Notes under the pieces: generated by a model
Databases searched by the model: none
What the model was told of the DNA's origin: nothing
What the model saw: the letters and a program-made list of their open reading frames with translations, nothing else
Program-made: the position numbers and the translations under genes
IMG/VR virus record: IMGVR_UViG_3300042907_000764
Span: 1 to 35,500 of that record
Source of the DNA: a virus
Direction: 5' to 3' (one strand)
DNA: 35,500 nt
In this document: piece by piece, positions 1,860-26,402 of the stretch
Layout: the number at the start of each line of letters is the position of its first letter
Position numbering within the stretch: the stretch's first letter is position 1

Positions 1860-3193
1860 AAGGTTAACCCCTGCAATTGGGAGTTTGTTAGGCGTGTATT
1901 GTAGTAGCGGAGGCGGGATATGTGGCCGTTGATCTGCGCAGATCCTGAGTGAGCATGGCCAATGAAAAAAGTAGAAATGCTGGAAGTAGAAAATGAATTA
2001 TTCCTACTATCAATTATTGATCCATTAGCCAAAATGACCGAGTCTCCAGACTTATAGCCTTGTGCCAATTTTATCGGTGTGTTTCTTGCCAATTGCTCCG
2101 ATGTTGTGATGTTAAAAATGTCGGAGCCGCCAGCTCGTATTCTGTGACGCAAGCTGCTTAATGTCCCACTTGAAAAAATAAAAGGCGCAGCATTATTAAA
2201 TGTTGCGCCATCGGAGCAAATTAAGAAGTAATTGTCAAATGCTGTAGTCGGGCCGCTCGAATCGCCCTCGAAGCAAACGCTCCCTTCGATTGCGTTATAA
2301 AACCCGCTAAAATCACCCCCAGTAATCTGACAAACATCTGCTGAGCGTGTTACCGCTGCTGTGGTGGTTGGGATGTAGCTGGTGGGGAATGCGCCTATTT
2401 CAACTTGCGCGCCGTAAATCAAAAGCCCTTTGGTCGGGTCGCCAACATATGCCGTGTTGTTGTCCGAATTAGCTGGACCGGCTTGAAAATATTGATCGAC
2501 AGTTGATGACACAGTTCTAGTGACGCTGCAACGATACCATCCATTTCCTACCGCTGTTATTGTCGCTGTATTTCCTGCCGCGTTTGTGCCCACAACTCCT
2601 GTAGATAGATTAAACCAAGTATAATAGAGATTTGGACTGTCGTAAGCAATTAACTGCAGCCAACTTCTTTCCTGCGCTTTAGCAAAAACCGAATAAGTAA
2701 ATGTAGATGCTGAAGGGGTAATAGTGTTGTACACCAGATGCCGCTGGTTACTTGTAGTCGTTTCAGCTATTCTGAAAGCGTTTGTCCCGCCAGCCGGATC
2801 GGTTTCACTAGATGCTGCAATAGTCGAATTAAAAGCTGCCCAAGCTGCGTTTAATTGGTTGCTGCTAAATGTGCAAAGATTCGTCCTCTGCTCTTCAATC
2901 AACAGCCCCTTACTAATCCAATTCGTTCCATCGTAAACATGATCGAATCGTGGATCGTTTACTGCTGCTGAAGTCAATACACCGGATGAGTTGAAATATG
3001 TCCCAGTCGATGCCCGGCTAAACGATGGCGTGATTCCGCTAGTGCTGGTAAGCGATAGGCTGGATGCAAAATTAAGATCCAGAGTTGCTAGAGCCCCAGG
3101 CGGATTTACCCTGAATCCACTCAGCCCCAACCCAATCCCAGTGCCAATCATCTCACACCCCCGGCTAGTGCCTATGCTAAGAAGGTCACGCAT
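1856..3193 (-). CDS. Tail fibre / carbohydrate-binding virion protein with LamG-like C-terminus
   Basis: 445 aa. The N-terminus is Gly-rich (GTGIGLGLSG). The centre has signatures common in phage tail proteins with carbohydrate-binding modules: 'GLLIEEQRTNL' near residue 97 and 'GAQVEIGAFPTSYIPT' near 265-280. The last 150 residues resemble a concanavalin A/LamG-type domain ending 'GHISRLRYYNTRLTNSQLQ'. It probably contacts host surface glycans. The start is an ATG at 3193 preceded by GGAAGGTGG; an ATG at 3151 is an alternative. The interior is visibly richer in A/T than neighbouring structural genes, which fits module exchange at a host-range locus. Fibre versus tailspike cannot be decided. 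Confidence 0.7.
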   Translation of the reverse strand: MRDLLSIGTSRGCEMIGTGIGLGLSGFRVNPPGALATLDLNFASSLSLTSTSGITPSFSRASTGTYFNSSGVLTSAAVNDPRFDHVYDGTNWISKGLLIEEQRTNLCTFSSNQLNAAWAAFNSTIAASSETDPAGGTNAFRIAETTTSNQRHLVYNTITPSASTFTYSVFAKAQERSWLQLIAYDSPNLYYTWFNLSTGVVGTNAAGNTATITAVGNGWYRCSVTRTVSSTVDQYFQAGPANSDNNTAYVGDPTKGLLIYGAQVEIGAFPTSYIPTTTAAVTRSADVCQITGGDFSGFYNAIEGSVCFEGDSSGPTTAFDNYFLICSDGATFNNAAPFIFSSGTLSSLRHRIRAGGSDIFNITTSEQLARNTPIKLAQGYKSGDSVILANGSIIDSRNNSFSTSSISTFFIGHAHSGSAQINGHISRLRYYNTRLTNSQLQGLTL

Positions 3194-5074: not shown

Positions 5075-5268
5075 TCCAGATCTTCTGCATCACGCTCTAT
5101 CAAATCCTCGTTTAGGTTGTCGTTCTCGGCGTTCAGGCGTTCGATCTCGGCTAGCAGATCCTGCAGCACCTTGCGCAGCTCAGGGTCTGGGTAATACTGG
5201 GCGCGGCTCTGGATTTCCAGTAACCGCGCCTTGCTCATGGCTGGTATTTCGTGCATGTCTAACCTCAT
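5068..5268 (-). CDS. Small coiled-coil protein
   Basis: 66 aa. After a short lead, residues 27-60 form a regular Leu/Ile heptad helix ('LRKVLQDLLAEIERLNAEND'), very acidic toward the end. The ATG overlaps the dnaN stop (ATGA, 5265-5268) and its stop overlaps the rusA start, so it is coupled on both sides. No family recognised. It may be an adaptor between the clamp and other replication proteins, but only position supports that. Confidence 0.6.
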   Translation of the reverse strand: MRLDMHEIPAMSKARLLEIQSRAQYYPDPELRKVLQDLLAEIERLNAENDNLNEDLIERDAEDLEW

Positions 5269-6341
5269 GTTTGTGGCATGATCAGTGTGTAAATCTTGCC
5301 TGCCGAAAGCGTCACCGGCCCATTGCCGCGGGTCTGGAAAATGACCTCTTCCTCGGTGTCAAATGCCTCCAATGCCTCAAGCAAAAACACCGGGTTTAAA
5401 CTGACATGCGCTTTGCCTTCGCCTGCAAAGAACGCTGTGATCTGGCTACTTCCAGCAGTCGCAGACCTCCCACCCAAAACCATGGCGGCACCACCCGGCC
5501 CGGTTGCGCCTAGTTGCACATCAAGGCGCAGGCTTTCCCGGTCAACCATCACCTGTGCCTGGCGCACCGCCCGCGCCAATTCGGCAGGCGCAAAGCCTCG
5601 CCATGCTGTGCCTCCATCCTTCGGGATAACAGCCTGATAATCAGGGTATTTCCCTTCGACCAGCAGGGTTTTCATTTTAAACCCATCGTTGGTAGATAAT
5701 GTCATGCCTCGCTTGGAAAACACTAGCCGCACAAGGCCGGCAAGATTTCCTGCCATGCGCCAGGCACTGGCCGGAACCACTGCCGAAATCACCCCAGTAA
5801 AGTCAGCCTGTTTGGTTACCTTGGCTAATCGCCGGCCATCGGTAGCCACAAAATCGAGCGTATGGTTTTGCCCAGATACAAACACGCCCATCATGGTGAA
5901 CCGCGCCAAATCCTTGGCCGCTGCGTAGCTGGTCGATGCGATTGCCCTGGCTAACTCCTCGCCCTCGATGCGCACCTCAACACCTTCTAGATCTTCGCAG
6001 CTTGGAAAGGCAGCGCAATCCTGCAGCGGTAACTCAAACCGAGCGCCACCAGCAGACACAGCCAGAACCTTTTCCTCTATGACAAACTCAACTTGGCCGC
6101 AGTCGCTGCGCTTCAGGATCTCAGCCAGCCTCGATGCGCTGACCAATACCTTAAACTCTTCTGTGGTGTCGCCCTCGATCAGGCAGCGCAGGTGTTGCTC
6201 CTGGTTCGTACACTCCACAGAAATGACCAAAGGCTTCACATCGATCAGCACACAGGTCAGCACTGGCCGGTTGACATCTCGGCCAACAGCCGGCATCACC
6301 CTGGTCAATGCACCCAGTAAATTGGCCCGATTAAATTTCAT
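5265..6341 (-). CDS. dnaN: DNA polymerase III beta-type sliding clamp
   Basis: 358 aa, the standard bacterial beta-clamp length of three tandem domains. Landmarks: 'SASRLAEILKR' in domain 1, 'FVATDGRRLAKV' in domain 2, 'KYPDYQAVIPKD' at the domain 2-3 junction, 'LNPVFLLEALEAF' in domain 3, and the C-terminal tail 'IYTLIMPQT'. It should form a ring on DNA and tether polymerase. I chose ATG 6341 because GGGAGGG lies just upstream and clamps usually begin 'MKF'. No phage polymerase or clamp loader is present, so it probably captures host polymerase III. Identification is firm; the recruitment model is inference. Confidence 0.93.
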   Translation of the reverse strand: MKFNRANLLGALTRVMPAVGRDVNRPVLTCVLIDVKPLVISVECTNQEQHLRCLIEGDTTEEFKVLVSASRLAEILKRSDCGQVEFVIEEKVLAVSAGGARFELPLQDCAAFPSCEDLEGVEVRIEGEELARAIASTSYAAAKDLARFTMMGVFVSGQNHTLDFVATDGRRLAKVTKQADFTGVISAVVPASAWRMAGNLAGLVRLVFSKRGMTLSTNDGFKMKTLLVEGKYPDYQAVIPKDGGTAWRGFAPAELARAVRQAQVMVDRESLRLDVQLGATGPGGAAMVLGGRSATAGSSQITAFFAGEGKAHVSLNPVFLLEALEAFDTEEEVIFQTRGNGPVTLSAGKIYTLIMPQT

Positions 6342-6342
6342 G

Positions 6343-6555
6343 CTAGCCCTCCCATTCAATCCCTAGGAACGCCTGCAGAACCCCCCGCAAACGCTCCACC
6401 TCGCCCACCAACCTCACCACTGCGGTGAGTGCCTCGTCTAGCTCGCCGATCTCATCAGTCGGTCGAGCCTTGATTTGCGCCAGCTCTTTAAGCCGGCCCG
6501 CTGCCCACGCCCTTATCTGGGCCAGATGTTCCGGGTCGTCGCTTTGGTATTTCAC
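6343..6555 (-). CDS. Small helical protein upstream of the clamp gene
   Basis: 70 aa, not recognised. Nearly all helical: 'IRAWAAGRLKELAQIKA' then 'ALTAVVRLVGEVERLRGVLQ', a likely coiled coil. The start is a GTG at 6555, about 68 bases inside the preceding gene in another frame. The stop lies one base before dnaN. It resembles the other tiny coiled-coil genes of this operon in style. Function unknown. Confidence 0.55.
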   Translation of the reverse strand: MKYQSDDPEHLAQIRAWAAGRLKELAQIKARPTDEIGELDEALTAVVRLVGEVERLRGVLQAFLGIEWEG

Positions 6556-6733: not shown

Positions 6734-6836
6734 TGCGCGCCTCCAGCGCCGCTAGTAGCTGCTTGATTACCGGGTGCCGGTCAGGACACAGCCCGTAGTG
6801 CCGTGCCAAATTACGTAGCGTTTCAACCTCACCCAT
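6672..6836 (-). CDS. 54-aa hypothetical miniprotein
   Basis: A short ORF that begins 'MGEVETLRNLARHYG', followed by 'LCPDRHPVIKQLLAALEAR', amphipathic helices like those of neighbouring small genes. It overlaps the sigma-factor stop by 8 bases and fills an otherwise empty gap of about 95 bases. No Shine-Dalgarno is obvious, so it may depend on coupling to the sigma gene. Its C-terminal third overlaps the next gene. Function unknown. Confidence 0.5.
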   Translation of the reverse strand: MGEVETLRNLARHYGLCPDRHPVIKQLLAALEARNGVRELRADSDAPDQRGESD

Positions 6837-7545
6837 TTTTTTGGGCCAACTTTAGACGTTTTAATCGTCCACGCTCGCCAGACAGCTTGCGCTCGTGCAG
6901 TAACTGGTAACTGCACTGGCAGCAGTAAAGATTTTTATTCAGGTTGTATTGCTGAGCCCCGCCACCGCAGCGGATGCATTTGGTTGTCTGAATCAATTCC
7001 CCTGGCATCGCGCTGGCACACTTGCGGCGTGCAATCGTCAAGTGCTGGCAGATGCGCTGGTGGCTGACGCCATAGTGGTCAGCGATTTCCCTAATGGTGT
7101 AATCCTTTGCCAAGCGCTGCAGAATATCAGCCTCTTGCGGTGTGCAAAATCCTAATGCCTGCTTGGTCACCATGGCGGCATCCAGCCCATTCCAGTGATG
7201 ATCTCGGCCTTGCATATCGAGCAAACTAACCTCTGCATCAAGCGAGTATTTAATGACTCGGCCCCTTTTCCCACGCTTGAAATAGTCGTTCAAATGCCCA
7301 CGCCTGCGGTATACGAAGTGATCTAACACCGTTGACAATTTGCCACGCGCCGGGTCGTGATACTGCACAGCCCGCACCAGCTGAACCATCACCTCGCTCT
7401 GCCAATCGTCCTGGTCCATGCCTAACGGTGGTCTATATTTTCGCGAGAGAAAATAGACCAGCCGCAAGTTTTCCTCGACCATCAACTTCTGCTCAGGGGT
7501 CAATGGCTCATTCGTTTTCTTCTGATTCGTCTGGTTCGCCTGCAT
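6829..7545 (-). CDS. Sigma-70-family factor with C-terminal zinc ribbon
   Basis: 238 aa. Residues 15-95 match sigma region 2: 'ENLRLVYFLSRKYRPP', then 'DDWQSEVMVQLVRAVQYHD' and 'FVYRRRGHLNDYF'. Residues about 131-175 match region 4, with 'TPQEADILQRLAKDYTIREI' and a helix-turn-helix 'DHYGVSHQRICQHL'. The end adds a zinc ribbon (CIRCG...YCCQC), unusual for a sigma factor. It should direct host RNA polymerase to phage promoters, perhaps late ones. I prefer ATG 7545; an ATG at 7587 adds 14 residues but overlaps the upstream gene more. It could also be an RNAP-binding transcription activator with a sigma-like fold. Confidence 0.8.
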   Translation of the reverse strand: MQANQTNQKKTNEPLTPEQKLMVEENLRLVYFLSRKYRPPLGMDQDDWQSEVMVQLVRAVQYHDPARGKLSTVLDHFVYRRRGHLNDYFKRGKRGRVIKYSLDAEVSLLDMQGRDHHWNGLDAAMVTKQALGFCTPQEADILQRLAKDYTIREIADHYGVSHQRICQHLTIARRKCASAMPGELIQTTKCIRCGGGAQQYNLNKNLYCCQCSYQLLHERKLSGERGRLKRLKLAQKNG

Positions 7546-7756
7546 CGTTACAATCCGCCTCCACCTCGGCCATTTCAGAACAAACATCCAAGTGAGTAGC
7601 TAATACACGAGCTTGCTGATGTGTCATAAGAAAGCAGGCAGTTTCCTGACCATCTCGCAACAATGTCATCAGCACCTGCCCTGGCTGCAGTGTGTCCACT
7701 GTGGTCACAACTTCTAAAAGTCCTTCGTCCACTTTCAAACTCATCCGCTCTGCCAT
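7508..7756 (-). CDS. Acidic hypothetical protein
   Basis: 82 aa, not recognised. Residues 1-55 look like a small alpha/beta domain ('GLLEVVTTVDTLQPGQVLMT', 'TACFLMTHQQARVLATHL'). The last 20 residues are mostly Glu/Asp and overlap the sigma gene in another frame. Its ribosome site GGGGAGGG lies in an 11-bp palindrome (TCCCCTGGGGA), so mRNA folding could affect translation. Directly before the sigma gene, it could be a partner of the sigma factor; this is positional only. Confidence 0.6.
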   Translation of the reverse strand: MAERMSLKVDEGLLEVVTTVDTLQPGQVLMTLLRDGQETACFLMTHQQARVLATHLDVCSEMAEVEADCNDAGEPDESEENE

Positions 7757-10566: not shown

Positions 10567-11484
10567 TTAAAACCTTGCCACAATTCCAAAGCTGGAAAAG
10601 ACTAGGCAAAACTTCTCAGCATTCCCGCCCACATAAATGCACACCTGCCCCTGCACTGGCGAGTTGGCCGGCTTGCCGTTTTTATCGTTGAACTTGACGC
10701 GGCCTCGAACAAAGCAGATGGCCGTGGCCACTGAAGCTATTTCATGGAACCACTGCGTATCGGTTGCGTTGTTTACCAGGACAATTGCTTGCGATAGGTT
10801 GGCTGTTTCCTCAACCAGCTTGGCCGCAAACAAGCCGACAGATTCCTTGGAATACGGAGGGTTAAGCCAGACGTTCCCGCGCCATTCCTTGATTAGTCCG
10901 TTTTCATCTATCGTGAAGTACTGGCTAGCCTGAACCGTTTCCTGCGCCAGTTCACAGCTTGCCGGGTCCAAGTCAATGGAACCCATCACAGTGCGTGCGG
11001 CCTCAATGTATTTAGATGGCGTGTACCATTCATTTTCCACGCTGTTGTGGGAGACATGGCAAGGGTCCGCAAGCTTCAGCAATCCAGCCTGGGTAACCTC
11101 CCGCTGCTCATCGTTGCATTCTCGAATGTATTCCTCGAACGTATCCTCATTAACCTTGGCCTCTTTCTGCCAACGGGATGATTGCTTGTATGAAACGCCA
11201 AAGGACTCCAATGGTGCCCCTGACATCGTGTCAGGGGCAGATTTACCGTGCTGGTTTACCGGCTTCTCCATCGCAGCCAGCAATTCCCCGGCCCGTCTTT
11301 CAGCCCGCAGCTTTATTTCTGAGGCTGAATTAGCAGCTTCAAGGCTGTCTGATGCCGCCTTGATGTAGATGCGTAAAGCTTCAGCCTGATCCCTGATGCG
11401 CAAAACATCATCAAGGTTCTTTGCGGATACCAATGCCAACTTAGCCTGGCTTATCCTTGCCAATGTTGTCGTTTCAGTAGCCAT
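10567..11484 (-). CDS. Dam-like N6-adenine DNA methyltransferase with N-terminal helical domain
   Basis: 305 aa. Residues about 150-300 contain 'ENEWYTPSKYIEAARTVMG', 'IDLDPAS' and the catalytic 'NVWLNPPYS' (NPPY), which define the phage Dam-type adenine methyltransferases. The N-terminal half is helical with 'RAERRAGELLAAMEK', a motif found in phage proteins with ParB-like or DNA-binding N-termini. It probably methylates phage DNA against host restriction. The start is ATG 11484; a GTG nine bases upstream is also possible. No cognate restriction enzyme is nearby. It is the second methyltransferase in this operon. Confidence 0.8.
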   Translation of the reverse strand: MATETTTLARISQAKLALVSAKNLDDVLRIRDQAEALRIYIKAASDSLEAANSASEIKLRAERRAGELLAAMEKPVNQHGKSAPDTMSGAPLESFGVSYKQSSRWQKEAKVNEDTFEEYIRECNDEQREVTQAGLLKLADPCHVSHNSVENEWYTPSKYIEAARTVMGSIDLDPASCELAQETVQASQYFTIDENGLIKEWRGNVWLNPPYSKESVGLFAAKLVEETANLSQAIVLVNNATDTQWFHEIASVATAICFVRGRVKFNDKNGKPANSPVQGQVCIYVGGNAEKFCLVFSSFGIVARF

Positions 11485-12109
11485 GGATTGCACCGAAAAA
11501 TGGCAGGCATTGCTGTGTTGGTTTAAAATTGGGATCGTTTAAGGTTCCTTTTGCCCATCGAGGCAGCAGCCATTCTTCATGCTTGTCTTGAAATCCAAGC
11601 ATTCGGACATGCTCAATAATCATGCCGCTTGGAAACTTTAGCTTCCCATTGTTATGTGTCCGCTTGTGGCATTCAGAGCAAAGCGTTTGAAGATCTCTCA
11701 TTTCCTCGCAGAAAAGGTTTTCATAGGTTAGGTGATGGCATTCAAGGCTAGCTTCTGTCTTGCAGGTTACGCAGCACCCGCCATCTTGTACCCTTCTTGC
11801 TTCCCTAGTCTTTCGCCAATGGTCCGACTTGTAGTAGGCATCCTGTATTTCCTTGGTCAACTTGAGCTTGGTAGGAATTTGGTCAATGTCATCTAATCGG
11901 TACGGGTTTTTAAAAGAGCCATCGCCAGAAATAATAAAGCCGTAACAATTGCGTAGCTGCTCGACAGTAGGCGCAAGCCTGCTACCCTTGCCGAGGATTC
12001 CGGTAACTTCACATTCGGTTTTTCTAAGTTTTTCTCCTTGGCGAAGGTGTGCCAATATAAGTTTTTGCGCTTCAATCCTTTCATGGTGTGCCCTAGCTTC
12101 CATGTTCAT
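11474..12109 (-). CDS. HNH endonuclease with helical N-terminus
   Basis: 211 aa. Residues about 112-155 carry 'CCVTCKTEASLECHHLTYEN' then 'LQTLCSECHKRTH', a full HNH/treble-clef zinc motif. The first 90 residues are helical. Its ATG overlaps the helicase-methyltransferase stop (ATGA). Placed between two DNA methyltransferase genes, it could be a nuclease working with them, or a mobile HNH that settled here. The overlap on both sides argues for a stable operon member. Confidence 0.78.
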   Translation of the reverse strand: MNMEARAHHERIEAQKLILAHLRQGEKLRKTECEVTGILGKGSRLAPTVEQLRNCYGFIISGDGSFKNPYRLDDIDQIPTKLKLTKEIQDAYYKSDHWRKTREARRVQDGGCCVTCKTEASLECHHLTYENLFCEEMRDLQTLCSECHKRTHNNGKLKFPSGMIIEHVRMLGFQDKHEEWLLPRWAKGTLNDPNFKPTQQCLPFFGAIHGY

Positions 12110-14328
12110 ACGTATTCCACCTCCGAAAATAGAGACTTGTTTTCAGATTTGGCGTTCTTAAGATTCAAAGATGCCTGCTTCCAATAGCTTTCCTTAAGCT
12201 CGCAACCAACAAACCGCCTACCCATCTGCAGAGAAATAAAGCCTTCAGAACCAATCCCAGCAAATGGTGATAGGACAACATCGCCAGGGTTGGACCACAT
12301 CCGCAGTGCTCGGCGAATCACCTCAAGCTGCAGTGGGCAAATGTGTCGCTCGTCTTCTTCTTCGCGGCAGCTTCTCCGCTGCAATGTGTCCGATGCGTTT
12401 ATGTCCATCCACACAGGCGAAGCAAACTTCTGCCATTCAGCAACAGGGAACTCTTCAGGCTTGTGACTGACTGGGTTGGCGTTCACGCCTGGCTTACGGC
12501 AGACAACCAGATAATCCGGTATGCCTTGCCGGCTAATGGTCGAGTCTTTTCTGAGTTGTTTCCACAGCAGGCCGATAGCTTTGGTTCTCTGCATTGCTGT
12601 GACTGGGTCTTTCCAGATGCAGACTTCGCTGTGATAAATCCAGCCTTCTTCAACATGAATGCGAATAAGCTCGCCACGGAAATCACGCAGGCCTATTTCC
12701 CCATGGTGCGCCTTGCTGCTTGGCAGCAGCATGCAATGAAACGCCGTCAACCTTCCCGGCTTGGTGACGCGGTAAAGATTGCGCACCAAGAATCGGTACT
12801 GCTCTAAAAACTCCTTATCTGTCTTGGTGTTTCCCATGTCACGAGGTGATGCGCTGTAAGTGTACAGGCTGGCAAATGGTGGAGAGTAAACCGAGAAATC
12901 AATAGAATTGCTAGCCATTTCTGCTGTCTCTTCGACGCAGTCGCCAAGCCTCATTTGCCATCCTTCGCCTTCCTCAACCTGTCGCTTGTGTTCCACCTGA
13001 ATGCTCCTCCCATCTTTAAGTTCATCCGTGACAAAAACCGATGCTTCCGCAATCATGCGGTCGGCCATTTCTTTAGCCTGCTTGTCTTTGCGCTCAATGT
13101 TTGCAACAACATTTCCCTCAATGTCAGCCGCCACAAACCACACATCGACATGCCTTTTCTGACCAAAGCGCCAGCACCGGCGGATGGCTTGGTAAACCTG
13201 TTCCCATGAATCATTTAGGCCGACAAAAACCATCTTGTGGCAGTGCTGCCAGTTAAGGCCAAAACCGCACATAGATGGTTTGCCAATAAGAATGCGGATT
13301 TCTCCGCTGGCAAACTCACGTAGGATGCGTTCCTTGGTTTCCTCGTTCTGGTCGCCGCGCAACTCAACCGAACCGGGAATAGCTTCCGCCAAGGCTTCGC
13401 TTTCGCTGTTGAGGTGGCACCAGATAACCCAATGTTCAGAGGTGTTAGACTGAGAAACAATTCCAGCGGCTTCAGTCACTCTCCTATCTACGGTTTTGCG
13501 CTTGGCAGCCAGCCTTTCCTGTAGGGTTGCTGCTTCTATTACGAACAGTTCGCCAGGCATGACGCTGTTGCTGGTAATGGTTGCCAGATGTTGGCGCAGT
13601 TCTGGTAGCTTGTGGCGTGAACCATCAAAACCAATATCTTCAGGTGACTGAAGCAGACATGCCCAGGAGCAGACCCACTTCCAGAACGCTGTGGTGGCGT
13701 GTCCCTTTAGCCGCCACTTCTGGGTTTCCCCGCCATCATGAACAAAATAGGTGGCCAGCATTTCCGCTCGGGTACAGACACCCAGAAACTCGGCATGGCT
13801 GGCAAGCTCCATCCAGTCATTAGGTGCTGGCGTTGCTGTGCTGGCTAGCCGGTAATCAATGCCAGCGGCAAACTCAATTAAATCTGCCTTAGTCGCACCA
13901 TCGTGGTGCTTGATAATGCTCGACTCATCCAGAACAAGGCCTGACCATTCCTCATCCCTAACCATGTGCAGCTTGGCGTAATTAGTCACATAAATGCCAG
14001 GTCCGCCAATGTCCTGAGACGTGCGGATCTTGTTGACCTTTATGCCAAACAGCTCGCCTTCACTTACAATCTGGTCCGACACCGCCAGCGGTGCCAAAAC
14101 TAAAACGCGCCACTTTGACCAGCGTTGAACATTCTCGGCCCACGCCAACTCCATTAGCGTTTTACCCAAGCCGGTACCAGCAAAGATGCATGCTCGCCCT
14201 TTTCGCAGTGCCCAACGGATGATGGCTTGCTGGTAGTCAAAAGCTTCGGAAGGCATAAAGCTTTCCAGAATCTGATTGAATGTGACCGCCCTATCCTTTG
14301 ATGCAATAAATTCCAAGTATTCAGACAT
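12106..14328 (-). CDS. SF2/SNF2-like helicase fused to DNA methyltransferase
   Basis: 740 aa. The N-terminal part is an SF2 ATPase: 'FAGTGLGKT' (Walker A, about residue 51), 'LVLDESS' (motif II, about 134), 'STATP' (motif III) and 'QAIRRCWRFGQKRHV' (motif VI, about 380). The C-terminal 270 residues are an amino-methyltransferase: 'GDCVEET', 'VYSPPF' (catalytic SPPF, about 482) and 'SPFAGIGSEG' (AdoMet site, order-swapped as in beta-class enzymes). It may track along DNA and methylate it, protecting phage DNA. I chose ATG 14328 with AAGGGGGAAG upstream over a TTG at 14376. Both halves look intact. Confidence 0.85.
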   Translation of the reverse strand: MSEYLEFIASKDRAVTFNQILESFMPSEAFDYQQAIIRWALRKGRACIFAGTGLGKTLMELAWAENVQRWSKWRVLVLAPLAVSDQIVSEGELFGIKVNKIRTSQDIGGPGIYVTNYAKLHMVRDEEWSGLVLDESSIIKHHDGATKADLIEFAAGIDYRLASTATPAPNDWMELASHAEFLGVCTRAEMLATYFVHDGGETQKWRLKGHATTAFWKWVCSWACLLQSPEDIGFDGSRHKLPELRQHLATITSNSVMPGELFVIEAATLQERLAAKRKTVDRRVTEAAGIVSQSNTSEHWVIWCHLNSESEALAEAIPGSVELRGDQNEETKERILREFASGEIRILIGKPSMCGFGLNWQHCHKMVFVGLNDSWEQVYQAIRRCWRFGQKRHVDVWFVAADIEGNVVANIERKDKQAKEMADRMIAEASVFVTDELKDGRSIQVEHKRQVEEGEGWQMRLGDCVEETAEMASNSIDFSVYSPPFASLYTYSASPRDMGNTKTDKEFLEQYRFLVRNLYRVTKPGRLTAFHCMLLPSSKAHHGEIGLRDFRGELIRIHVEEGWIYHSEVCIWKDPVTAMQRTKAIGLLWKQLRKDSTISRQGIPDYLVVCRKPGVNANPVSHKPEEFPVAEWQKFASPVWMDINASDTLQRRSCREEEDERHICPLQLEVIRRALRMWSNPGDVVLSPFAGIGSEGFISLQMGRRFVGCELKESYWKQASLNLKNAKSENKSLFSEVEYV

Positions 14329-14381
14329 GACTTCCCCCTTACCCCCAATGGGTTTGCGCTTTTTAAATTGTTTCAACCTTG

Positions 14382-17327: not shown

Positions 17328-18476
17328 TTACCCAAATACTTTGTCAATTTCACCTCGGCTTCTAATAGGGCTGAGGTGCGCATAGTGCTTAGACAGTACT
17401 CGCAGAGTTTTCCAACCACCCATGCGCTGGACGAGTAAGACGGAAACTCCTTTTTCCAGCAGTTCTGTAGTGCCACCATGGCGCAGGCTGTGAACCACGG
17501 CTATGCCTCGCTCTGTCTCATGCTCTATGCCAGAACTCTTCAAATCACGCCTAAACATGTGGTGGATGTTTAATCCACTGATACTGTGAAATAGTGGCAC
17601 ATTAGCCGGGCATTCATCAATCAACTGGCGCAATGGTTCCACTAGCCGTTTAGGCACTGGCACCTGTTGGGTTATTTTTGTTTTGGCGTGTTGAGCTCGT
17701 AACAGAATAGACGAATCGTCTTCGCCTAAATGCACATCAGACTTAGTCAGACTCAGCAGCGCACCGCGCCTGGCTAATGTCGCAAAGGCCAGAGCGTAAA
17801 ACAAACCGCGCGGCCAAGGCGAGTTGGCTTGCAGCAAATCCACTTCGGCTCTGGTTAGTGGTCGGCGAACATATTTGGCGACATCCAATATTTTCGGAAA
17901 CTCTGGCACTTGGCGTATCAGGTTGCCGGCCAGCAGCCATTTCATAAAACCTTTGAGCTGGATGACTTTTTGGATCTTGCTGCCATTGCTGAGAGGCAGA
18001 CCATCTAGCCATTTCTCTAATTGCTTGGCGGTCAATTTTTTAACCCCGGCAAGGGAATCAATTTTCAGTTGCGCCAGCGCTCCGGCCAGCCGTGCCTGCG
18101 CCTCACGCAGGTATACATCCGTACATGTCCTTGCTTTGAGAGCCCAATATCTTGCAGTCAGGGCAGAAAATTTTTCGGTGGTGACGGTCGTAGCGCTGGA
18201 AATCCCCACGGAAATGCGTTCCTGCTCGGTTCTGAGCTTGGCCAATAGCATCTCAGCTGCAAGTTTGTCCCGGCATAATTTGACCAACTTGGTGCTGCCG
18301 TCCGCCATCCGCAGGCTGGCATACCACTCAGGCCGAACAACCTTAGCGCGGCCCGTAGGTGTGAGGTCGCACCAGACATCCTTGCCCCAGACGGTTAACA
18401 TCGCCTGAGCAACGCCCTTGCTTACCCGCCTTTTTGCGTCTGGTGGCACGTCTCTAGTATCGTGTTTGCGTTTCAT
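17328..18476 (-). CDS. int: Tyrosine-recombinase integrase
   Basis: 382 aa. The C-terminal catalytic domain has 'FATLARRGALLSL' (Arg of box I in a divergent setting), 'HSLRHGGTTELLEKG' (H-x-x-R), 'GGWK' (Trp in place of the second His) and 'LSKHYAHL' (nucleophile Tyr). The N-terminal half has an arm-type part and a core-binding helical domain ('LEKWLDGLPLSNGSKIQKVI'). It should integrate the phage genome at a host attachment site. ATG 18476 has AGGAATAGG upstream. TGTGCCT repeats straddle its start and the facing HNH end, so attP probably lies in 18496-18658. Confidence 0.9.
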   Translation of the reverse strand: MKRKHDTRDVPPDAKRRVSKGVAQAMLTVWGKDVWCDLTPTGRAKVVRPEWYASLRMADGSTKLVKLCRDKLAAEMLLAKLRTEQERISVGISSATTVTTEKFSALTARYWALKARTCTDVYLREAQARLAGALAQLKIDSLAGVKKLTAKQLEKWLDGLPLSNGSKIQKVIQLKGFMKWLLAGNLIRQVPEFPKILDVAKYVRRPLTRAEVDLLQANSPWPRGLFYALAFATLARRGALLSLTKSDVHLGEDDSSILLRAQHAKTKITQQVPVPKRLVEPLRQLIDECPANVPLFHSISGLNIHHMFRRDLKSSGIEHETERGIAVVHSLRHGGTTELLEKGVSVLLVQRMGGWKTLRVLSKHYAHLSPIRSRGEIDKVFG

Positions 18477-19318: not shown

Positions 19319-20227
19319 CTAGACGATCCAGTCGATTGACTGGTTCTTTGGAAACCCAGTGAACTTGCTGTATGCAAACGAGTCACGCGCTCGCAGCATG
19401 TTGTCAGCAATCTTGGCCTCCACCCACCAACCAGATGCCGGCCCGCCTTCGGGTGCCGGCCCCGTGGTTGAATCGCCGCCCCAGCTATTCACTACGAACA
19501 GGCCGGGCCTACTACCTTTGCGGTAGCCAATGAATGCCATCGAATGGCCCCAGTTACCTGCAGCAGTGCAGAACCCGGCACTATCGCGGCTCATGCGAAA
19601 ACCTTGATTGCTGCAGACGTTAATCCCAAAGCCTTGAGACAAGGCAATACAGGCATCTTCAAAGCTAGTCACTAAGGTGACGCTGCCGACTGGATTCTTT
19701 TTGGCAATTGCCTCTAGCTCATTCGGACAGCCTGCACCTGGTGCACCCCATTTGCGTGCGCGTGCGCCATCGTATTTAGTCAGGTCGTGTGAACCGTAGA
19801 CATCCTGCGGAACCACGCCCCACAGATTGACCCACTTAGCTGCCCATGCGCCAACGCTGCCATCACCACGGATGCGGCCACCGCCAACCTCGACACGGCT
19901 GCCAGCGTAGATGACCTCCATTGATGGCGTTTTCGGCTGTTCATGGTCGCCGCGTTTAATCTCGCTGATTTGCGTGAATAACATGGCCGCGCTGGTTCCG
20001 AATGAAACGCAGGTGCCGTAGCTGCCCTGGTTGAAAATCGGCCAAGGCTTGCCAGCTATTTCCTCGTACTCTTTCCAGCCATAGACATGGTCTGGGATTT
20101 CGTCGAATGACACAGCACCGGCATCGGTTGCGCCAAAGTTTGACCAGGGCAGATCCTGCACCACCTCGGTGACTGCCTCTTGATCATCTACCCAGCCTGT
20201 GGCGTACTCGGTCAGTTCGTCACTCAT
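19319..20227 (-). CDS. Papain-like (C1-type) cysteine peptidase
   Basis: 302 aa. The catalytic triad is visible in order: 'NQGSYGTCVSFGTSAAM' (Gln67 oxyanion, Cys73), 'NWGHSMAFIGY' (His228) and 'FVVNSWGG' (Asn247). No signal peptide; residues 1-60 are acidic and could be a propeptide or targeting part. The ATG overlaps the previous stop (ATGA). Position after tail genes and between two membrane-protein genes suggests an endolysin-like role against a protein-rich envelope, or processing of virion proteins. The peptidase assignment is strong; the lysis role is inference. Confidence 0.85.
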   Translation of the reverse strand: MSDELTEYATGWVDDQEAVTEVVQDLPWSNFGATDAGAVSFDEIPDHVYGWKEYEEIAGKPWPIFNQGSYGTCVSFGTSAAMLFTQISEIKRGDHEQPKTPSMEVIYAGSRVEVGGGRIRGDGSVGAWAAKWVNLWGVVPQDVYGSHDLTKYDGARARKWGAPGAGCPNELEAIAKKNPVGSVTLVTSFEDACIALSQGFGINVCSNQGFRMSRDSAGFCTAAGNWGHSMAFIGYRKGSRPGLFVVNSWGGDSTTGPAPEGGPASGWWVEAKIADNMLRARDSFAYSKFTGFPKNQSIDWIV

Positions 20228-20901: not shown

Positions 20902-21135
20902 TTAGTCTCTCCGCAGACAGGTGATGTCGTTTATTCTGGTATGCACTTCTTTGATGCTTTCTGCGATGGTTTTGTTTGTTTGTTCAAGCGATGTTAGGAA
21001 ATCGAAGTGCCTATTACGCAGCGGAACTAATAGCTCTTTGCCTAGCCAACTGCCAGCAGTCCAGATGGCGTAGCCCATGCCTGCGATAATCACGGCAGGG
21101 AATCCTAGGTCACGAGCGGCAGTTATCCAGTCCAT
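20902..21135 (-). CDS. Small membrane protein, holin-like candidate
   Basis: 77 aa. One membrane helix near the N-terminus ('FPAVIIAGMGYAIWTAGSWL'), a basic junction (PLRNRH), then a helical cytoplasmic or periplasmic tail ('LTSLEQTNKTIAESIKEVHT'). That layout is common among small phage holin-like proteins. ATG 21135 has AGGAG nine bases upstream. It starts the 21135-18664 cassette with the secreted protein and papain-like peptidase. Confidence 0.5.
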   Translation of the reverse strand: MDWITAARDLGFPAVIIAGMGYAIWTAGSWLGKELLVPLRNRHFDFLTSLEQTNKTIAESIKEVHTRINDITCLRRD

Positions 21136-21156: not shown

Positions 21157-22506
21157 TCATTCTGAGGTAGTAGGCTCACGAAGCTCGGCCAGCGCCTTGG
21201 CCTTGGCTAGAAAATGCTGATAAACAGCCTCGGCAGGCAGGTTGTTGTGCGGCTCTGTGCCGTTGCCGTGCTGCGGTGTGTAGAAACTATTGGCGCTTGG
21301 ATTGACCTTGCCTCGGCATCGATGGACAAACAGCGGCTCGGCATCTGGTCCAAGATGAATAAATGCTGGGCCAACCCATTTAGGAACTTTCTCATAAATA
21401 GCGCGGCTGCGCTTAGTCCACGCCCAGGCTACCCGTGCCGGTCCTTTGTCGCCATAGTCCCAGTGGTAGGTGAGGTCTGACATCTCATTGAGCTTGCTGG
21501 CTATTTGCGCCTCTTCCCATACTTTGCCTAAATGGTACAAATATTGTCCTGTTTCGATTGGTGGTGAATCATCACGCTCGATGCCCCAGCGCTCCCAGCG
21601 CGTCCATGGCTCAGCGTTGGCCAGGTCTGGATAGTGAACGCTGCCGGTTTGCTGGTACAGGCTGCACCCGTAGAGTAGGTTAGGATCTCGTGCCGGATAG
21701 CAGTCGGAATCTAGCCAGAGCGGTTGCTCAATGCCGGAATGGAGCACAGCGTAGAGCTTGATCTCGAATCCGTTGAGAATGCGGTATGGGTTGAGCTTCC
21801 TGACTTCGTAGGCATCGACGCAAAGCACATCCAATTTGCGCAGCTCGGAAATCCAGAACTCGTCGTATTCCTGCTCGCCGAGATACCACGCCTGAATCGT
21901 GTGCCTCCAGCCCATCTCACGGCAGATAGCCGCCATCGTCCAGGTGCCCGGCCAGTAGCGACCGCCTCCACTGGTGACGATGCCACGCTCGACGGCAAAG
22001 GCTGATTGGCTGCCGCTAATTGCCTGGCGCAGGTCGTCGATGATCCTATGCACCGCCTTGGTCTGGTTGCCGGTGTAAACTCCGCCATCGTTAGTGAGCT
22101 TGGTACTTGTCAGCAGTTGCGCCCACTGGTCAACGGTTAACTGCTCCTCGGCTTGGTACTCTGGACAGCGCCAGCAGGTCATCACCGTTTCATCGTTGCC
22201 GTAGCGCCGGCAGGTGCCATGGATGCCGCAGGCGTGCAGCTCGGTACCGCCACCGCATCCGACTGGGCAGGTGGTTTTTAGTTCAAGCTTATCGCCTAGG
22301 TGCTGGCATTTGATTCTGCCGCGTTTGGCTCGCTCTTTGGCTAGGTCGGAGTTGCTGGCAAAGGTTTTGCCAGGGATGATTGGTGCTGGTTGCGCTGGTC
22401 CTTCGCCGTTCCAGAGTTTGCGGTAGCGCTCGTCGTGCAGAAACAGCTTGCAGATGTGGCAAGTGCACAGCTTTGGATCAAGCGGACAAGGCTTGTGTAA
22501 AACCAT
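21157..22506 (-). CDS. Glycosyltransferase with N-terminal Cys-rich module
   Basis: 449 aa. Residues 1-20 hold CPLDPKLCTCHIC. Residues 67-116 hold 'KCQHLG', CPVGC, 'LHACGIHGTC' and CWRCPEY, a zinc-binding pattern I associate with planctomycete glycosyltransferases. Residues 170-290 look like a mannosyltransferase-type GT-A fold: 'RGIVTSGGGRYWPGTWTMAA', 'GFEIKLYAVLHS' and the metal-binding DSD in 'PLWLDSDCYPARDP' (266-268). It probably moves a sugar from a nucleotide donor to a virion protein or cell surface. It abuts the GSGS tail proteins, which are Ser-rich possible acceptors. Donor and acceptor unknown. Confidence 0.75.
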   Translation of the reverse strand: MVLHKPCPLDPKLCTCHICKLFLHDERYRKLWNGEGPAQPAPIIPGKTFASNSDLAKERAKRGRIKCQHLGDKLELKTTCPVGCGGGTELHACGIHGTCRRYGNDETVMTCWRCPEYQAEEQLTVDQWAQLLTSTKLTNDGGVYTGNQTKAVHRIIDDLRQAISGSQSAFAVERGIVTSGGGRYWPGTWTMAAICREMGWRHTIQAWYLGEQEYDEFWISELRKLDVLCVDAYEVRKLNPYRILNGFEIKLYAVLHSGIEQPLWLDSDCYPARDPNLLYGCSLYQQTGSVHYPDLANAEPWTRWERWGIERDDSPPIETGQYLYHLGKVWEEAQIASKLNEMSDLTYHWDYGDKGPARVAWAWTKRSRAIYEKVPKWVGPAFIHLGPDAEPLFVHRCRGKVNPSANSFYTPQHGNGTEPHNNLPAEAVYQHFLAKAKALAELREPTTSE

Positions 22507-23330
22507 TAGATAACCGGACCTCCACCGCCACCACTAATACTATTTTCCGTCAGAATCATGGTTGCCTTGATGCACGAACAGTCAAATTTCACATCGGCTA
22601 AAGTTAGGTTTTGATCTATCCAACTAGGGTATTCCCAACCATTTCTGCCAAGGCAATTTGCAAGACATGGAGCAGAAATATCGTTAACTTGATCACCACA
22701 AAAAGCTTCTGAATTTATTGTAATTTGCAAGGGATCGCAACTGTCAACGCTGATAGCGCCGTTATAGCCAGGAATATAAAAATGCAAGACCCAATGGTCT
22801 ATAGGCAAAGCCAAATGTCCGGTTCCATCGCTAAAAAATACAAAATATGGGCACTTCTTATATGTCAAACATGATCCAATTGACCCGCCTATGAAAGGAC
22901 TGTTGCCTGATCCACCAAAACACTCAATGTATTCTGGTGAACCATCAACCATATTTTTGGAAACAATCAAATCCCCATAGCAAACCAACGGAATTTCAAA
23001 TGATTTTCTAAATAAATCGCAGCAGCTAGGGCAATCGGTAACGCAATCTTGAGTGCTTCCTGTTTCAGGACCATCTAGAATAGCTCCGGCACCCAACGAA
23101 CCAGAACCAGAACCAGAACCACAACTTCCAATTGGTAAACCAGAGCACTGAGAATAGCTTAAAGTAACTGATAAATAAAACGCTGTCTTACAGGCTGTTT
23201 TAACGCTTGAAGTAGAGCACTCACTTAGTGCTTTACCAGCGTCAAAAAACGAGCATTGGCAACTACCACTACCGGAACCCGAACCGGAACAGCAGTTGCA
23301 ATTAGGATATACTAAAGTTATTTCTGCCAC
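22506..23330 (-). CDS. Cys-rich tail-tip candidate with Gly-Ser linkers
   Basis: 274 aa with more than 20 cysteines. It opens 'NCNCCSGSGSGSGSCQCSFF' and has a second run GSGSGSGS near residue 75. The rest is beta-rich with paired Cys (DCPSCCDLF, CLTYKKCPYF, FDCSCIKA) and ends in GGGGGP. Many cysteines suggest zinc or disulfide stabilisation outside the cell. DNA here is noticeably more A/T-rich than its neighbours, a hint of separate origin. After the tape measure and before the glycosyltransferase, it is likely a tail-tip or receptor-binding protein. Unknown family. Confidence 0.5.
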   Translation of the reverse strand: MAEITLVYPNCNCCSGSGSGSGSCQCSFFDAGKALSECSTSSVKTACKTAFYLSVTLSYSQCSGLPIGSCGSGSGSGSLGAGAILDGPETGSTQDCVTDCPSCCDLFRKSFEIPLVCYGDLIVSKNMVDGSPEYIECFGGSGNSPFIGGSIGSCLTYKKCPYFVFFSDGTGHLALPIDHWVLHFYIPGYNGAISVDSCDPLQITINSEAFCGDQVNDISAPCLANCLGRNGWEYPSWIDQNLTLADVKFDCSCIKATMILTENSISGGGGGPVI

Positions 23331-23863
23331 TAAGGGGATCCACTAGACGGAGCAGATGTAACAGTACCACCAGGAATAGTCAGGATTTTCTTAGTCACCA
23401 CCAGCGTGGAACCAGAACAAGTCACATCAGTCACCACAGTCTGCGTCAAATTGGTCGCCGTGCTGGCCACACTACCAGCCACCACCCACAGACCAGCAGC
23501 ACTGCCAGAACCAGAACCGGAACCAGAACCAGAACCACTGCCGGCATACCAGCCAACGCAGAGCGCAACGTATTTATTGCCGTTGGTTAATGTGGCGTTG
23601 TTCGGTTCGATGACGCTAACGATCTCATAGTCTGACCAGGTCGAGCTGTATGCATCGCTATTCCTGCCAAGCAGTTTGGCCGGATAGGTGCCGTCTGACT
23701 GCTTGGCACCTGTCACCTGCACCACACGCACAGCAACGCCCTGCACCTCGTACTGCTCGGTGAGATGCTCGCGGAATGTTGGAGCCATCCCACCGCCTTC
23801 AAACGCCTTAAGCATTTTGCCGAGGCGCTTGATCGTCTCTAGCTCTAGCGAATAGCCAGCCAT
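23330..23863 (-). CDS. Tail-tip protein with (GS)n hinge
   Basis: 177 aa from ATG 23863 (TAATG overlap). Residues 1-100 start 'MAGYSLELETIKRLGKMLKA', include 'YEVQGVAVRVVQVTG' and a compact beta region. A hinge of seven GS repeats near residue 110 follows, then a Thr/Val-rich beta domain 'LWVVAGSVASTATNLTQTVV'. The hinge is encoded by near-perfect hexamers (GGTTCT). It may join an inner tail-baseplate domain to an outer binding domain. Not assigned to a known family. Confidence 0.5.
   Translation of the reverse strand: MAGYSLELETIKRLGKMLKAFEGGGMAPTFREHLTEQYEVQGVAVRVVQVTGAKQSDGTYPAKLLGRNSDAYSSTWSDYEIVSVIEPNNATLTNGNKYVALCVGWYAGSGSGSGSGSGSGSAAGLWVVAGSVASTATNLTQTVVTDVTCSGSTLVVTKKILTIPGGTVTSAPSSGSP
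23502..23540 (-). repeat. Hexanucleotide GGTTCT repeat encoding Gly-Ser
   Basis: Six or more tandem GGTTCT/GGTTCC units code for the hinge of the 177-aa protein. Shorter runs occur at about 23102-23125 and 23262-23290 in the next gene. Such tracts can change length by slippage in steps of two residues, altering hinge length without breaking the frame. Confidence 0.75.
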
Positions 23864-24846
23864 TAAAGCGGACTCGGGAAGGTGATAGTTCGGTAGATGT
23901 CCCAAGCTTTGTAATAGGGTTTAGTGTCGGCGGCTAATCTGTTGGTGCTGCCGTCCATCAGCACAGCCTGTGTGACTGGCTGTTGCCCAGGTGGATCACT
24001 AAACGCGGTGTATCGCGTGCCATCCCATCTACGTTTGCCGGCATCGAGCAACACCAGCTTCCAGCCGAGCACTGGCCAACTGGCACCTAACTGCACCCAT
24101 CCGCTGGTGTAGGTTGTGGTGCTTGGCCTAAACTCAAACGCCAAAGTCCAACGCCAGTAGGCCAACCCGTTTTCGTAGACGGCCTGAGCGTTGAGGCTGT
24201 TTAGCCTGGTTGTTTTGGCCGCCAGCGAAATCGTTGAGCCTGGCGGTGTGATAGTTAGCGTGCTGGCGTTCAGTTTGCCGACTGCGCTCATCCACGCCTC
24301 AGATGGTGGTGTGGATGCGTTCAGGCCGATGGTGATCTGAGCGCCAAACTTCTGGATCTCGCTAGCTGGCAGAAACGGATCGTAGGCACTATTGAGAATT
24401 GCGTTGCCGTCCACATCTCCGCGCAGCGCCTCTGGGTAGGCGACTGTGGAGATCTGGTAATCACGAGGCCTAGACAGTGGCGACTGCACCCGCTCAGCAG
24501 GCGCTTGGCCTTGCTGCTGCGTGTCTATCGCAGGATTGCCGGTTGCACCAGTGCCAGTGCCACCGCCTTGGAATGTGTCGGCGTTGTAGGCGTAGTTGGC
24601 TGTTACTCGCCAGAGCGTGCCATCGTTTTGATCTTGATCTACCGAAAAGCCAACGCAGTAGGCCAGCGAGTCTTCTGGGTGAACTGACCAGACAAGCGGC
24701 AGGCTGGGATGGCTGCCAGCGTAGTAGGGACCATAGCCAGCCGAATCAGTCTTGACCAGAAACGCGCGCTTGTACGCTCGCTGGTAGCGCTGGTCAACGC
24801 TGCCGCTTCGGCCTTCGATGACTTCCCTGAATAGCGTGTAGGCCAT
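23863..24846 (-). CDS. Tail protein after the tape measure (distal-tail candidate)
   Basis: 327 aa, not recognised. N-terminal 95 residues 'MAYTLFREVIEGRSGSVDQR' and on, with a Gly-rich linker near 95-105 (GGGTGTGATG), then a beta-rich C-terminal domain with 'YWRWTLAFEFRP' and 'GWKLVLLDAGKRRWDG'. No enzyme motif. The first gene after a siphovirus tape measure is usually the distal tail protein; length and beta content fit, but no sequence signature was seen. ATG follows GAGGTAAGAC. Confidence 0.45.
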   Translation of the reverse strand: MAYTLFREVIEGRSGSVDQRYQRAYKRAFLVKTDSAGYGPYYAGSHPSLPLVWSVHPEDSLAYCVGFSVDQDQNDGTLWRVTANYAYNADTFQGGGTGTGATGNPAIDTQQQGQAPAERVQSPLSRPRDYQISTVAYPEALRGDVDGNAILNSAYDPFLPASEIQKFGAQITIGLNASTPPSEAWMSAVGKLNASTLTITPPGSTISLAAKTTRLNSLNAQAVYENGLAYWRWTLAFEFRPSTTTYTSGWVQLGASWPVLGWKLVLLDAGKRRWDGTRYTAFSDPPGQQPVTQAVLMDGSTNRLAADTKPYYKAWDIYRTITFPSPL

Positions 24847-24854
24847 GTCTTACC

Positions 24855-26402
24855 TCAGATGCCTACTTGAACTGTGCCGGGTAGTTTAATACCAGCCAGT
24901 AGTGTCAGCATTTCTGCGCCTTGGCGAGTTTGTTCTTTAGCCTCTGCTAGTATCTCTTGTTGCGGTTCTTTACCGCCGCCAAGCTGGTTGCGAACCATGG
25001 CCTCAACTGCTGCCGCGCTACCTGCTTGCAACCGCTGAACAGAAAAATCCGCAGCACTTGCAAGCTGGCGTTGTGGGATTTTGATAGCGTCAAGAGGTTG
25101 GCCGCCTTTTGGAAGACCCAGATCGTTTGCTCTACGAATATCGGCAACTGCTGCACCTTTTTTAATGTTGTCAAAAAAAGCAGTAATCTGCCCTTCTCTA
25201 GCAACTCGGTCCTGCTCAGCTTGTTTAACGCCTATCTGGTCTAGGAATTCTCTAGTCTCTAGCAGCGCTGCAGTCTCGCCGGAAATCAATCCTGATACGC
25301 CTTGGTCAAAAACAATCAGCACTTTTTTGGCCATCGTCTCCAGATTGATAATGATCTTTTGAAACTCTGAAGCAAAATTATTTGCAGTCTTTGCAATTAT
25401 TTCAGCAATCTCAAAAGCAAAATCCCTGCTTTTTTGGAAAGACGATTGGAGCCTGTCCGCCTCCCCAGCCGGACCAAGCGCTTCTAGTAGTCCTTTGGTA
25501 ATCTCCTTGACTATGCTGCTAATAGCATCAATCACACCACGAAGACTTGCTAGGAATGCTGGAATATCCAAGCCGTCTATTAAGCCTTTTCCAATGTCCC
25601 TGAACAGTTCAACAACGCCTTGTTGCAAACGGCTTAGCTGGCCATCAAAACTGTTAAACAGCCGCTGCGCTGCCTCGATAGCTTCCGGTGTTTTGACTGC
25701 ATCCTGCATAGCCAATACCGCAGTACTCGCCTGAACGGTCTTATTGTTGACCGCATTGATGGCATCTTCCACCGAGTGGAACTGACCGGTTACATTGCTG
25801 AGCCTGACAGCCAAAGCCTCATAAACCTTTAGGCCGCTTGACTGCATTTGTTGCAGGGTCGAGGCCTCTGCAACACCAGATTTGACCATCTCACTAATGC
25901 CGCCAGCCAATTGACCTAGGCCACCCTGCCCAAGCAGTGGTGCCACATTGGCAAATGTTCGCATTAACTTTTCGGCGCTGCCGGCATCAACGCCTGCTGT
26001 GGCAAGCTGCTGAAATCCTCCGACAACCTCACTAAGCGGCACACCCATATCGCGAGTTATCTGGCGCAAATTTTCTAGGCTTTCAGCACCTTTATCGAAA
26101 CTGCCTGCCATCAGGCCCATTTTGACTTGCATGGTTTCCAGCTCGCCGCCAAGCTTAATCATTTCACCGACAGCGGCAATTGGCGCGCCTATGAAAAACT
26201 GCGTTACGCCTCGCAGCATGTCGAATCCAGACTTGACATCGTTGGCACCCTTCAATGCCTGTGCCAGCCGGCCAAATGCACTACCAGCCTCATCAGCTTT
26301 TTTGCCAGCCTCGCTTGTTTTCTTTGCTGTTCTAGCTAATCCGTCTTCAGCCTGTTGGCCGTTCCAGCCAAGGTTGATCGCTAGTTTGCTAATCGTCGCC
26401 AT
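24855..26402 (-). CDS. Tail tape measure protein
   Basis: 515 aa. It starts 'MATISKLAINLGWNGQQAED', then coiled, Ala/Gly-rich helices with 'LGGELETMQVKMGLMAGSFD' and 'GVPLSEVVGGFQQLATAGVD', the conserved tape-measure region. Hydrophobic helices ('FFIGAPIAAVGEM') suit a membrane-passing role in DNA ejection. At about 1.5 angstroms per residue the tail would be near 75 nm, short for a siphovirus. No lysozyme or peptidase domain is inserted. ATG 26402 has GGAGG upstream and lies 14 bases inside the chaperone ORF. Confidence 0.82.
   Translation of the reverse strand: MATISKLAINLGWNGQQAEDGLARTAKKTSEAGKKADEAGSAFGRLAQALKGANDVKSGFDMLRGVTQFFIGAPIAAVGEMIKLGGELETMQVKMGLMAGSFDKGAESLENLRQITRDMGVPLSEVVGGFQQLATAGVDAGSAEKLMRTFANVAPLLGQGGLGQLAGGISEMVKSGVAEASTLQQMQSSGLKVYEALAVRLSNVTGQFHSVEDAINAVNNKTVQASTAVLAMQDAVKTPEAIEAAQRLFNSFDGQLSRLQQGVVELFRDIGKGLIDGLDIPAFLASLRGVIDAISSIVKEITKGLLEALGPAGEADRLQSSFQKSRDFAFEIAEIIAKTANNFASEFQKIIINLETMAKKVLIVFDQGVSGLISGETAALLETREFLDQIGVKQAEQDRVAREGQITAFFDNIKKGAAVADIRRANDLGLPKGGQPLDAIKIPQRQLASAADFSVQRLQAGSAAAVEAMVRNQLGGGKEPQQEILAEAKEQTRQGAEMLTLLAGIKLPGTVQVGI

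Follow-up and report, generated by a model that had tools for sequence, protein, structure and literature searches.

A putative glycosylation cassette for the stalks of a hypervariable phage tail tip

Serine-rich repeat adhesins of the GspB, PsrP and SraP type have dedicated glycosyltransferases encoded beside a Ser-rich low-complexity stalk and a binding domain. In phages, glycosylation of the virion by phage-encoded enzymes is already known. The capsids of mycobacteriophages Che8 and Rita are described as glycosylated by phage-encoded glycosyltransferases (cited in PMC11256854), virion glycosylation by phage enzymes has been reported for actinobacteriophages (Freeman et al. 2023, as cited in PMC11256854 and PMC13313380), and a glycosyltransferase and a methyltransferase encoded by Rhodococcus phages have been read as virion glycosylation (PMC13313380). 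In the view of the authors who described glycoproteins of XacN1, structural proteins of phages have rarely been identified as glycosylated (PMC5852040). Here we analyse four adjoining genes, D24, GS1, GS2 and GT, the last encoding a glycosyltransferase (GT), in the window, that is the whole 35,500-base stretch of DNA formed by positions 1 to 35,500 of the IMG/VR virus record IMGVR_UViG_3300042907_000764. Judging from their sequences, they probably belong to a dedicated, self-contained cassette that O-glycosylates the Ser/Thr-rich stalks of a variable tail tip. A full-text literature search of incomplete coverage found no account of a tip cassette with a swappable stalk and GT.

The locus resembles the actinobacteriophage systems in that a phage-encoded GT, sometimes together with a methyltransferase, is reported or proposed to modify a structural protein. 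Unlike those systems, for which the reported target is the major capsid protein, the GT described here is coupled to hypervariable tip genes, Ser/Thr stalks and a Cys-rich module, and enzyme and stalk types change together. With the serine-rich repeat adhesins it shares a Ser-rich stalk with an adjacent GT, and one of the fold matches of the window's enzyme is GlyE of S. pneumoniae. It differs from them by its phage tail context, its Cys-rich domains and, in the window, its short stalks: (GS)4-7, compared with about 50 to 200 hinge residues in the relatives L025, L026, L030 and L037. No Pfam match to GtfA/GtfB-type GTs or accessory Sec genes was found among the scanned open reading frames (ORFs) of the window, whose GT is of the GT-A type by its model. 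By analogy, the cassette may work like serine-rich-repeat or mucin-type systems while belonging to neither. All relatives, designated by L numbers, are metagenomic virus contigs, many of them near-duplicates, which were gathered by scanning a virus collection with GT, D24 and GT2 queries. The genes of the cassette and their parts are listed below; ORF lengths and starts are automatic calls.

23863..24846, minus strand: D24, a conserved tail gene that immediately follows the tape measure and anchors the cassette; distal-tail-like by position
23330..23863, minus strand: GS1, 177 residues from the ATG at 23863; N-terminal domain, (GS)7 hinge and C-terminal beta-like motif
23501..23542, minus strand: Gly-Ser hinge of GS1, 14 residues, GSGSGSGSGSGSGS at residues 108-121; GGTTCT-type hexamers, copy number varying in relatives
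22506..23330, minus strand: GS2, 274 residues, GTG start; hypervariable and Cys-rich, with two GS hinges; candidate receptor-binding protein of the tip
23262..23285, minus strand: first hinge of GS2, (GS)4, GSGSGSGS at residues 16-23
23097..23120, minus strand: second hinge of GS2, (GS)4, GSGSGSGS at residues 71-78; GGTTCT hexamers
22495..23360, minus strand: hypervariable segment, almost exactly GS2, delimited by blastn breakpoints against 8 relatives
21157..22506, minus strand: GT, 449 residues with an N-terminal Cys module; PF11051 match, MNT2 profile match, GT-A model
21694..21711, minus strand: DxD motif of GT (D266-S-D268), in DSDCYP, invariant in 16 relatives
22130..22506, minus strand: CYS module, GT residues ~1-125 with 11 Cys, CxHLG..C..CG..HxC..HG.C..CxxC.xY; most relatives have it as a gene of its own

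The tape measure gene (24855-26402, minus strand) is directly followed by D24, GS1, GS2 and GT, all on the minus strand, and these four are joined by 1-nt stop/start overlaps (TAATG, TAGTG and TAATG, respectively). GT is thus encoded among phage structural genes, within an overlap chain downstream of the tape measure. The earlier note on this DNA had proposed a unit of three genes, two GS proteins and the enzyme; the unit proved larger. Related virus contigs share the order tape measure protein-D24-GS1-Cys-rich protein-CYS-GT-HOL-H225-C1P, and this order persists in contigs in which identity to the window's D24 drops to about 45-52%. D24 itself, for which neither Pfam nor PHROG gave a match, has relatives of 28 to 100% identity directly upstream of GS1. 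The enzyme slot is held by three types: a GT71 type, a DxH-type GT2 (PF00535), with D98 and H100 invariant in 14 sequences, and a third type of 243 residues (L083, L090), which looks GT-like by eye and has no GT family match. Cys-rich proteins accompany every GT type.

Presence and composition of the hinge are associated with the enzyme. All 15 distinct cassette-type GT71 genes have an upstream hinge of at least 71% Gly, Ser and Thr (G/S/T). The GT2 scan was evaluated for GT genes preceded by 4 kb of sequence: hinges with at least 70% G+S+T lay upstream of 18 of 18 close GT2 genes and of 10 of 24 more distant ones. None of 22 background genes lying more than 6 kb from any GT had such a hinge, and among the ORFs of the window GS1 alone contains a 24-residue segment with at least 70% G+S+T. 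The hinges are (GS)n or ESGSVSGS with GT71, mucin-like Thr/Ser with GT2 and SGGT with the third type. Indeed, every GT2 cassette contains a 24-residue segment of 100% S/T (e.g. TTTTTTSTTTT or SSSSSTTSS), while every GT71 or third-type cassette reaches at most 62% S/T in segments of this length, most having Gly-Ser or ESGSVSGS hinges. In phages with other gene neighbourhoods, too, more distant GT2 genes are preceded by genes for poly-Thr proteins (e.g. in L131, L138, L167, L171 and L173).

Within one sub-group defined by D24, GS1 hardly differs among L030, L083, L090 and L084-L095 as far as the hinge position. At this position L030, which carries a GT71, reads TTSTTSGSESGSGSGS..., and L083 and L090, which carry the third type, read SSASTSSGSGGSGTSGG...; CYS and an enzyme are present in all three. 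L084-L095 lack both CYS and an enzyme, and in place of the hinge they show no more than a few residues, NAGGAGST for example. This joint presence or absence of hinge, CYS and enzyme is in our view the best single argument that the hinge may exist for the enzyme. CYS is fused to GT in the window group, to GT2 in L144, L148 and L149, and to the poly-Thr hinge protein in L072, L075 and L125; fusion to either partner suggests that it acts as an adaptor. In the alignment of CYS sequences, C27, C40, C44, C53, C71 and C74 (numbering of the aligned window segment) are invariant and C59 is nearly so.

The earlier note had seen in the gene next to GS2 a GT-A-type glycosyltransferase with a Cys-rich module of its own, and both points are borne out. 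Residues 174-297 of GT match PF11051 Mannosyl_trans3 with 36.7 bits (cut-off 22), D266, D268, GQ (320-321), GD (352-353) and H395/K400 are invariant in 16 relatives, and 11 of its 16 Cys lie within the first 125 residues. Comparison of the family profile with the PDB retrieved yeast MNT2 (E 1e-5). The AlphaFold2 model is confident only from about residue 170 onward, over the catalytic domain, and poor over the Cys module. It matches MNT2 (PDB 7xjv) with a Z score of 20.9, 285 residues being aligned with a root-mean-square deviation of 4.1 and 13-14% identity, as well as glycogenin and UGGT with Z of about 16-17. By this model GT is a GT71-like enzyme with a GT-A fold, and the nearest folds include protein-acting enzymes, namely glycogenin, UGGT, GlyE and the MNT2 of O-mannan chains. 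No membrane segment is predicted. GT thus shares its sequence domain (PF11051), GT-A fold and DxD motif with GT71/MNN1-type alpha-mannosyltransferases such as MNT2 but, unlike MNT2, it is phage-borne and fused to a Cys module. In L026 and L037 the GT71 enzyme is fused to a C-terminal S-adenosylmethionine-dependent methyltransferase. The GT2-type relatives recall GT27 polypeptide GalNAc-transferases by their invariant DxH and their poly-Thr, acceptor-like neighbour. Unlike GT27, no lectin domain was seen in them and their closest solved relatives are bacterial GT2 enzymes, below which GALNT12 appeared in the profile search with a non-significant E of 0.61.

GS2 is the variable gene of the cassette. 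The earlier note's count of more than 20 cysteines in one GS protein is confirmed by the 23 Cys among its 274 residues, many of them at conserved positions. Identity between the window and its relatives is 87-99% for D24, 90-98% for GS1 (GS-type relatives) and 75-95% for GT, and falls to only 40-49% for GS2. The blastn breakpoints against the 8 relatives lie near 22,494 and 23,358-23,361, almost exactly at the ends of GS2. A larger block, 22,393-23,756, has been exchanged in L018 and L007 for two other proteins, one with a Thr/Ser/Gly linker; despite this swap, their GT is still 89-91% identical to that of the window. Hypervariability between conserved flanks is the signature expected of a receptor-binding cassette and, together with gene position, points to a tail-tip location of GS1 and GS2. 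Profile scans, Pfam and PHROG included, gave no family match for GS2.

GS1 ends in the motif VVTDVxCxxxxLVVTKxxLxIPGG, and its ATG start, which overlaps the D24 stop, is kept in relatives as MAGY. Linkers of Gly-Ser are indeed present in both GS proteins, but their coding by GGTTCT hexamers, as the earlier note had it, is true of two tracts only: Tandem Repeats Finder recovered hexamer arrays for two of the three (5.5 and 4.7 copies, 92-95% matches), and the third (GGTTCGGGTTCCGGTAGTGGTAGT) is no clean GGTTCT array. The hinge is variable in length, as had been proposed, when phages are compared: in the window's relatives the GS1 hinge consists of about 5-9 GS dipeptides between near-identical flanks, a pattern that slippage would give. 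In L016 and L021, however, the hinge codons are scrambled with the Gly/Ser composition unchanged, which rules out DNA slippage as the sole cause of the hinge, and the long hinges of other relatives mix TCN and AGY Ser codons. Because codons are scrambled or mixed at synonymous positions, hinge composition appears to be kept at the protein level. A Serglycin Pfam match to GS1 (20.4 bits, cut-off 30) was discarded as low-complexity similarity.

These features can be combined in a mechanism. GS1 and GS2 would be structural proteins of the tail tip, GS2 being the fast-changing, host-contacting part, and the low-complexity segments, Gly/Ser in the window and Thr/Ser elsewhere, would be extended stalks doubling as multi-site acceptors. 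CYS would bring GT to the acceptor. Before or during tail assembly, GT would then move a sugar from a nucleotide-sugar donor of the host cytoplasm onto Ser/Thr of the stalk; the methyltransferase fused to GT in several relatives probably adds methyl groups to this glycan. Glycosylation would make the stalk stiffer and shield it, and could modulate or conceal the contact with the receptor, with a presumed effect on adsorption. The decorated, extended stalk would carry the variable tip domain.

Several observations weigh against glycosylation of the stalks. The GS2 model is poor (mean predicted local distance difference test score, pLDDT, 56.5) and without reliable PDB match, so that a receptor-binding fold for GS2 is not supported. 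GT homologues without GS proteins, which the earlier note had regarded as contrary evidence, do occur in part: L004/L018 and L007 retain GT beside a weaker Thr/Ser/Gly linker with no (GS)n, and no hinge is encoded in the 6 kb upstream of the distant homologues L033-L035. GS repeats as such therefore do not track GT. A hinge is also absent from the distant homologues L027 and L028, L027 offering a single upstream ORF for inspection, and from 14 of the 24 more distant GT2 homologues. Independent-pairs tests on the D24 tree gave 1-3 pairs, all concordant but not significant, and cassettes inherited or swapped as blocks may produce the association without enzyme-substrate specificity. The earlier idea of hinge and GT as a unit is partly supported, by the 15 hinges, the match of composition and enzyme, the joint presence or absence in one sub-group and the fusions. 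The hinge-less distant homologues would fit lysogenic conversion, in which the GT of a temperate phage alters the surface polysaccharide of the host, blocking superinfection or changing the receptor; the hinges would be flexible stalks, and tip and GT would adjoin since both adapt to the same receptor. The tyrosine integrase at 17328-18476 of the window agrees with a temperate phage, GT does adjoin the variable tip gene, and L027 and L028 lie beside a methyltransferase and other enzyme genes with no recognisable tip cassette. We nevertheless consider this explanation unlikely: GT is without a membrane segment, no flippase-like neighbour was recognised, and the gene is itself a link in the overlapping chain of tail genes; hinge, CYS and GT come and go jointly, and three contigs have CYS fused to the hinge protein.

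It is somewhat less likely again that GT acts on a different virion protein or on other residues of the tip, for instance the capsid or, by S-glycosylation as in glycocins, Cys, with the hinges as spacers. This would be in line with the capsid glycosylation by phage GTs reported for Che8 and Rita (cited in PMC11256854) and with the Cys-rich proteins found with all GT types; yet GT type tracks hinge composition, whereas Cys-rich proteins occur with all types, and the capsid gene is about 7 kb from GT, outside the swapped block. The few independent switches on the D24 tree could also mean that the cassette hitch-hikes, the hinge being a structural spacer, the purpose of GT unrelated and their association a result of descent and block exchange in a few phage groups. 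This appears very improbable, given that different enzyme families show the pattern, as do phages with the other gene neighbourhoods mentioned above, and that CYS is fused to both partners. Glucosylation of the phage DNA, known for T-even phages, was considered and rejected as having hardly any chance of being correct: the window does encode DNA methylases (Dam and N6/N4), but the Pfam scan of ORFs of this possibly incomplete record revealed no gene for base hypermodification, such as a hydroxymethylase, and GT sits in the tail operon.

Extending the preferred reading, glycosylation of tail-tip stalks, beyond the window is more tentative, and we rate it a little short of even: many environmental phages may carry interchangeable protein-glycosylation cassettes (GT71/Gly-Ser, DxH GT2/mucin-like and a third type) for hypervariable tail-tip proteins, with a Cys-rich enzyme-to-stalk adaptor, as a viral counterpart, by analogy, of mucin-type and serine-rich-repeat glycosylation. 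If so, phages would glycosylate the stalks on the host-recognising part of the virion and swap stalk and enzyme jointly, with a bearing on receptor binding, protection of the tip and the evolution of host range. Compact protein O-glycosyltransferases with matched acceptors would be usable as tools, and a class of Cys-rich, low-complexity phage proteins, which had no Pfam, PHROG or NCBIfam match where scanned, would gain a function.

The window as a whole encodes terminase, portal, a fused protease-capsid protein, head-tail genes, tape measure, integrase and DNA methylases. Its proteins may have a planctomycete look; as to the host, scans of genome contigs confirmed no relative, and none was found among INPHARED phages or PLSDB plasmids. 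Two genes of the conserved order lie beyond GT:

20902..21135, minus strand: HOL, a holin-like small protein by synteny, with a hydrophobic segment at residues 10-28; after GT in most cassettes
19319..20227, minus strand: C1P, a papain-like peptidase-like protein by synteny; end of the conserved gene order

C1P was read as papain-like by eye from NQGSYGTC..GH..NSWGG and has no Pfam match. On the other side of the cassette, the tape measure is only about 40% identical in L003, L015, L016 and L023 despite adjoining a D24 of 93-99% identity. This appears to be a further mosaic exchange, immediately upstream of the tip cassette. Outside the tail operon, positions 1856-3193 (minus strand) encode a 445-residue protein with a weak Laminin_G_3/ConA-lectin-like C-terminus, possibly a further surface-binding protein. 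The Dam methylase is at 10567-11493, and a 756-residue protein encoded at 12106-14376 (minus strand) joins a SNF2/DEAD-type helicase region to an N6/N4 DNA methylase. A DNA polymerase III beta-clamp-like protein and a sigma-70-like protein are encoded at 5265-6359 and 6829-7587, respectively (minus strand).

Among the relatives, L158 encodes a TPTPTPTP repeat protein about 1.1 kb upstream of its GT2 gene, a distant homologue. The stand-alone CYS proteins of L025 (5679-6086), L030 (4530-4928) and L037 (7517-7918) have an N-terminal region of about 70 residues that looks TubC-type-docking-like by eye; that of L037 has no Pfam match. Finally, proteins of L041 (7159-9057), L063 (9663-11342) and L072 (9467-10900), presumably of cytoplasmic synthesis, contain repeated Cys modules, CxxxCxWxWN..W..C..GCxCxxP, between poly-Thr/Ser runs. 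Such repeated-module proteins have up to 45 Cys each, and 73-81 Cys in L131 and L138.

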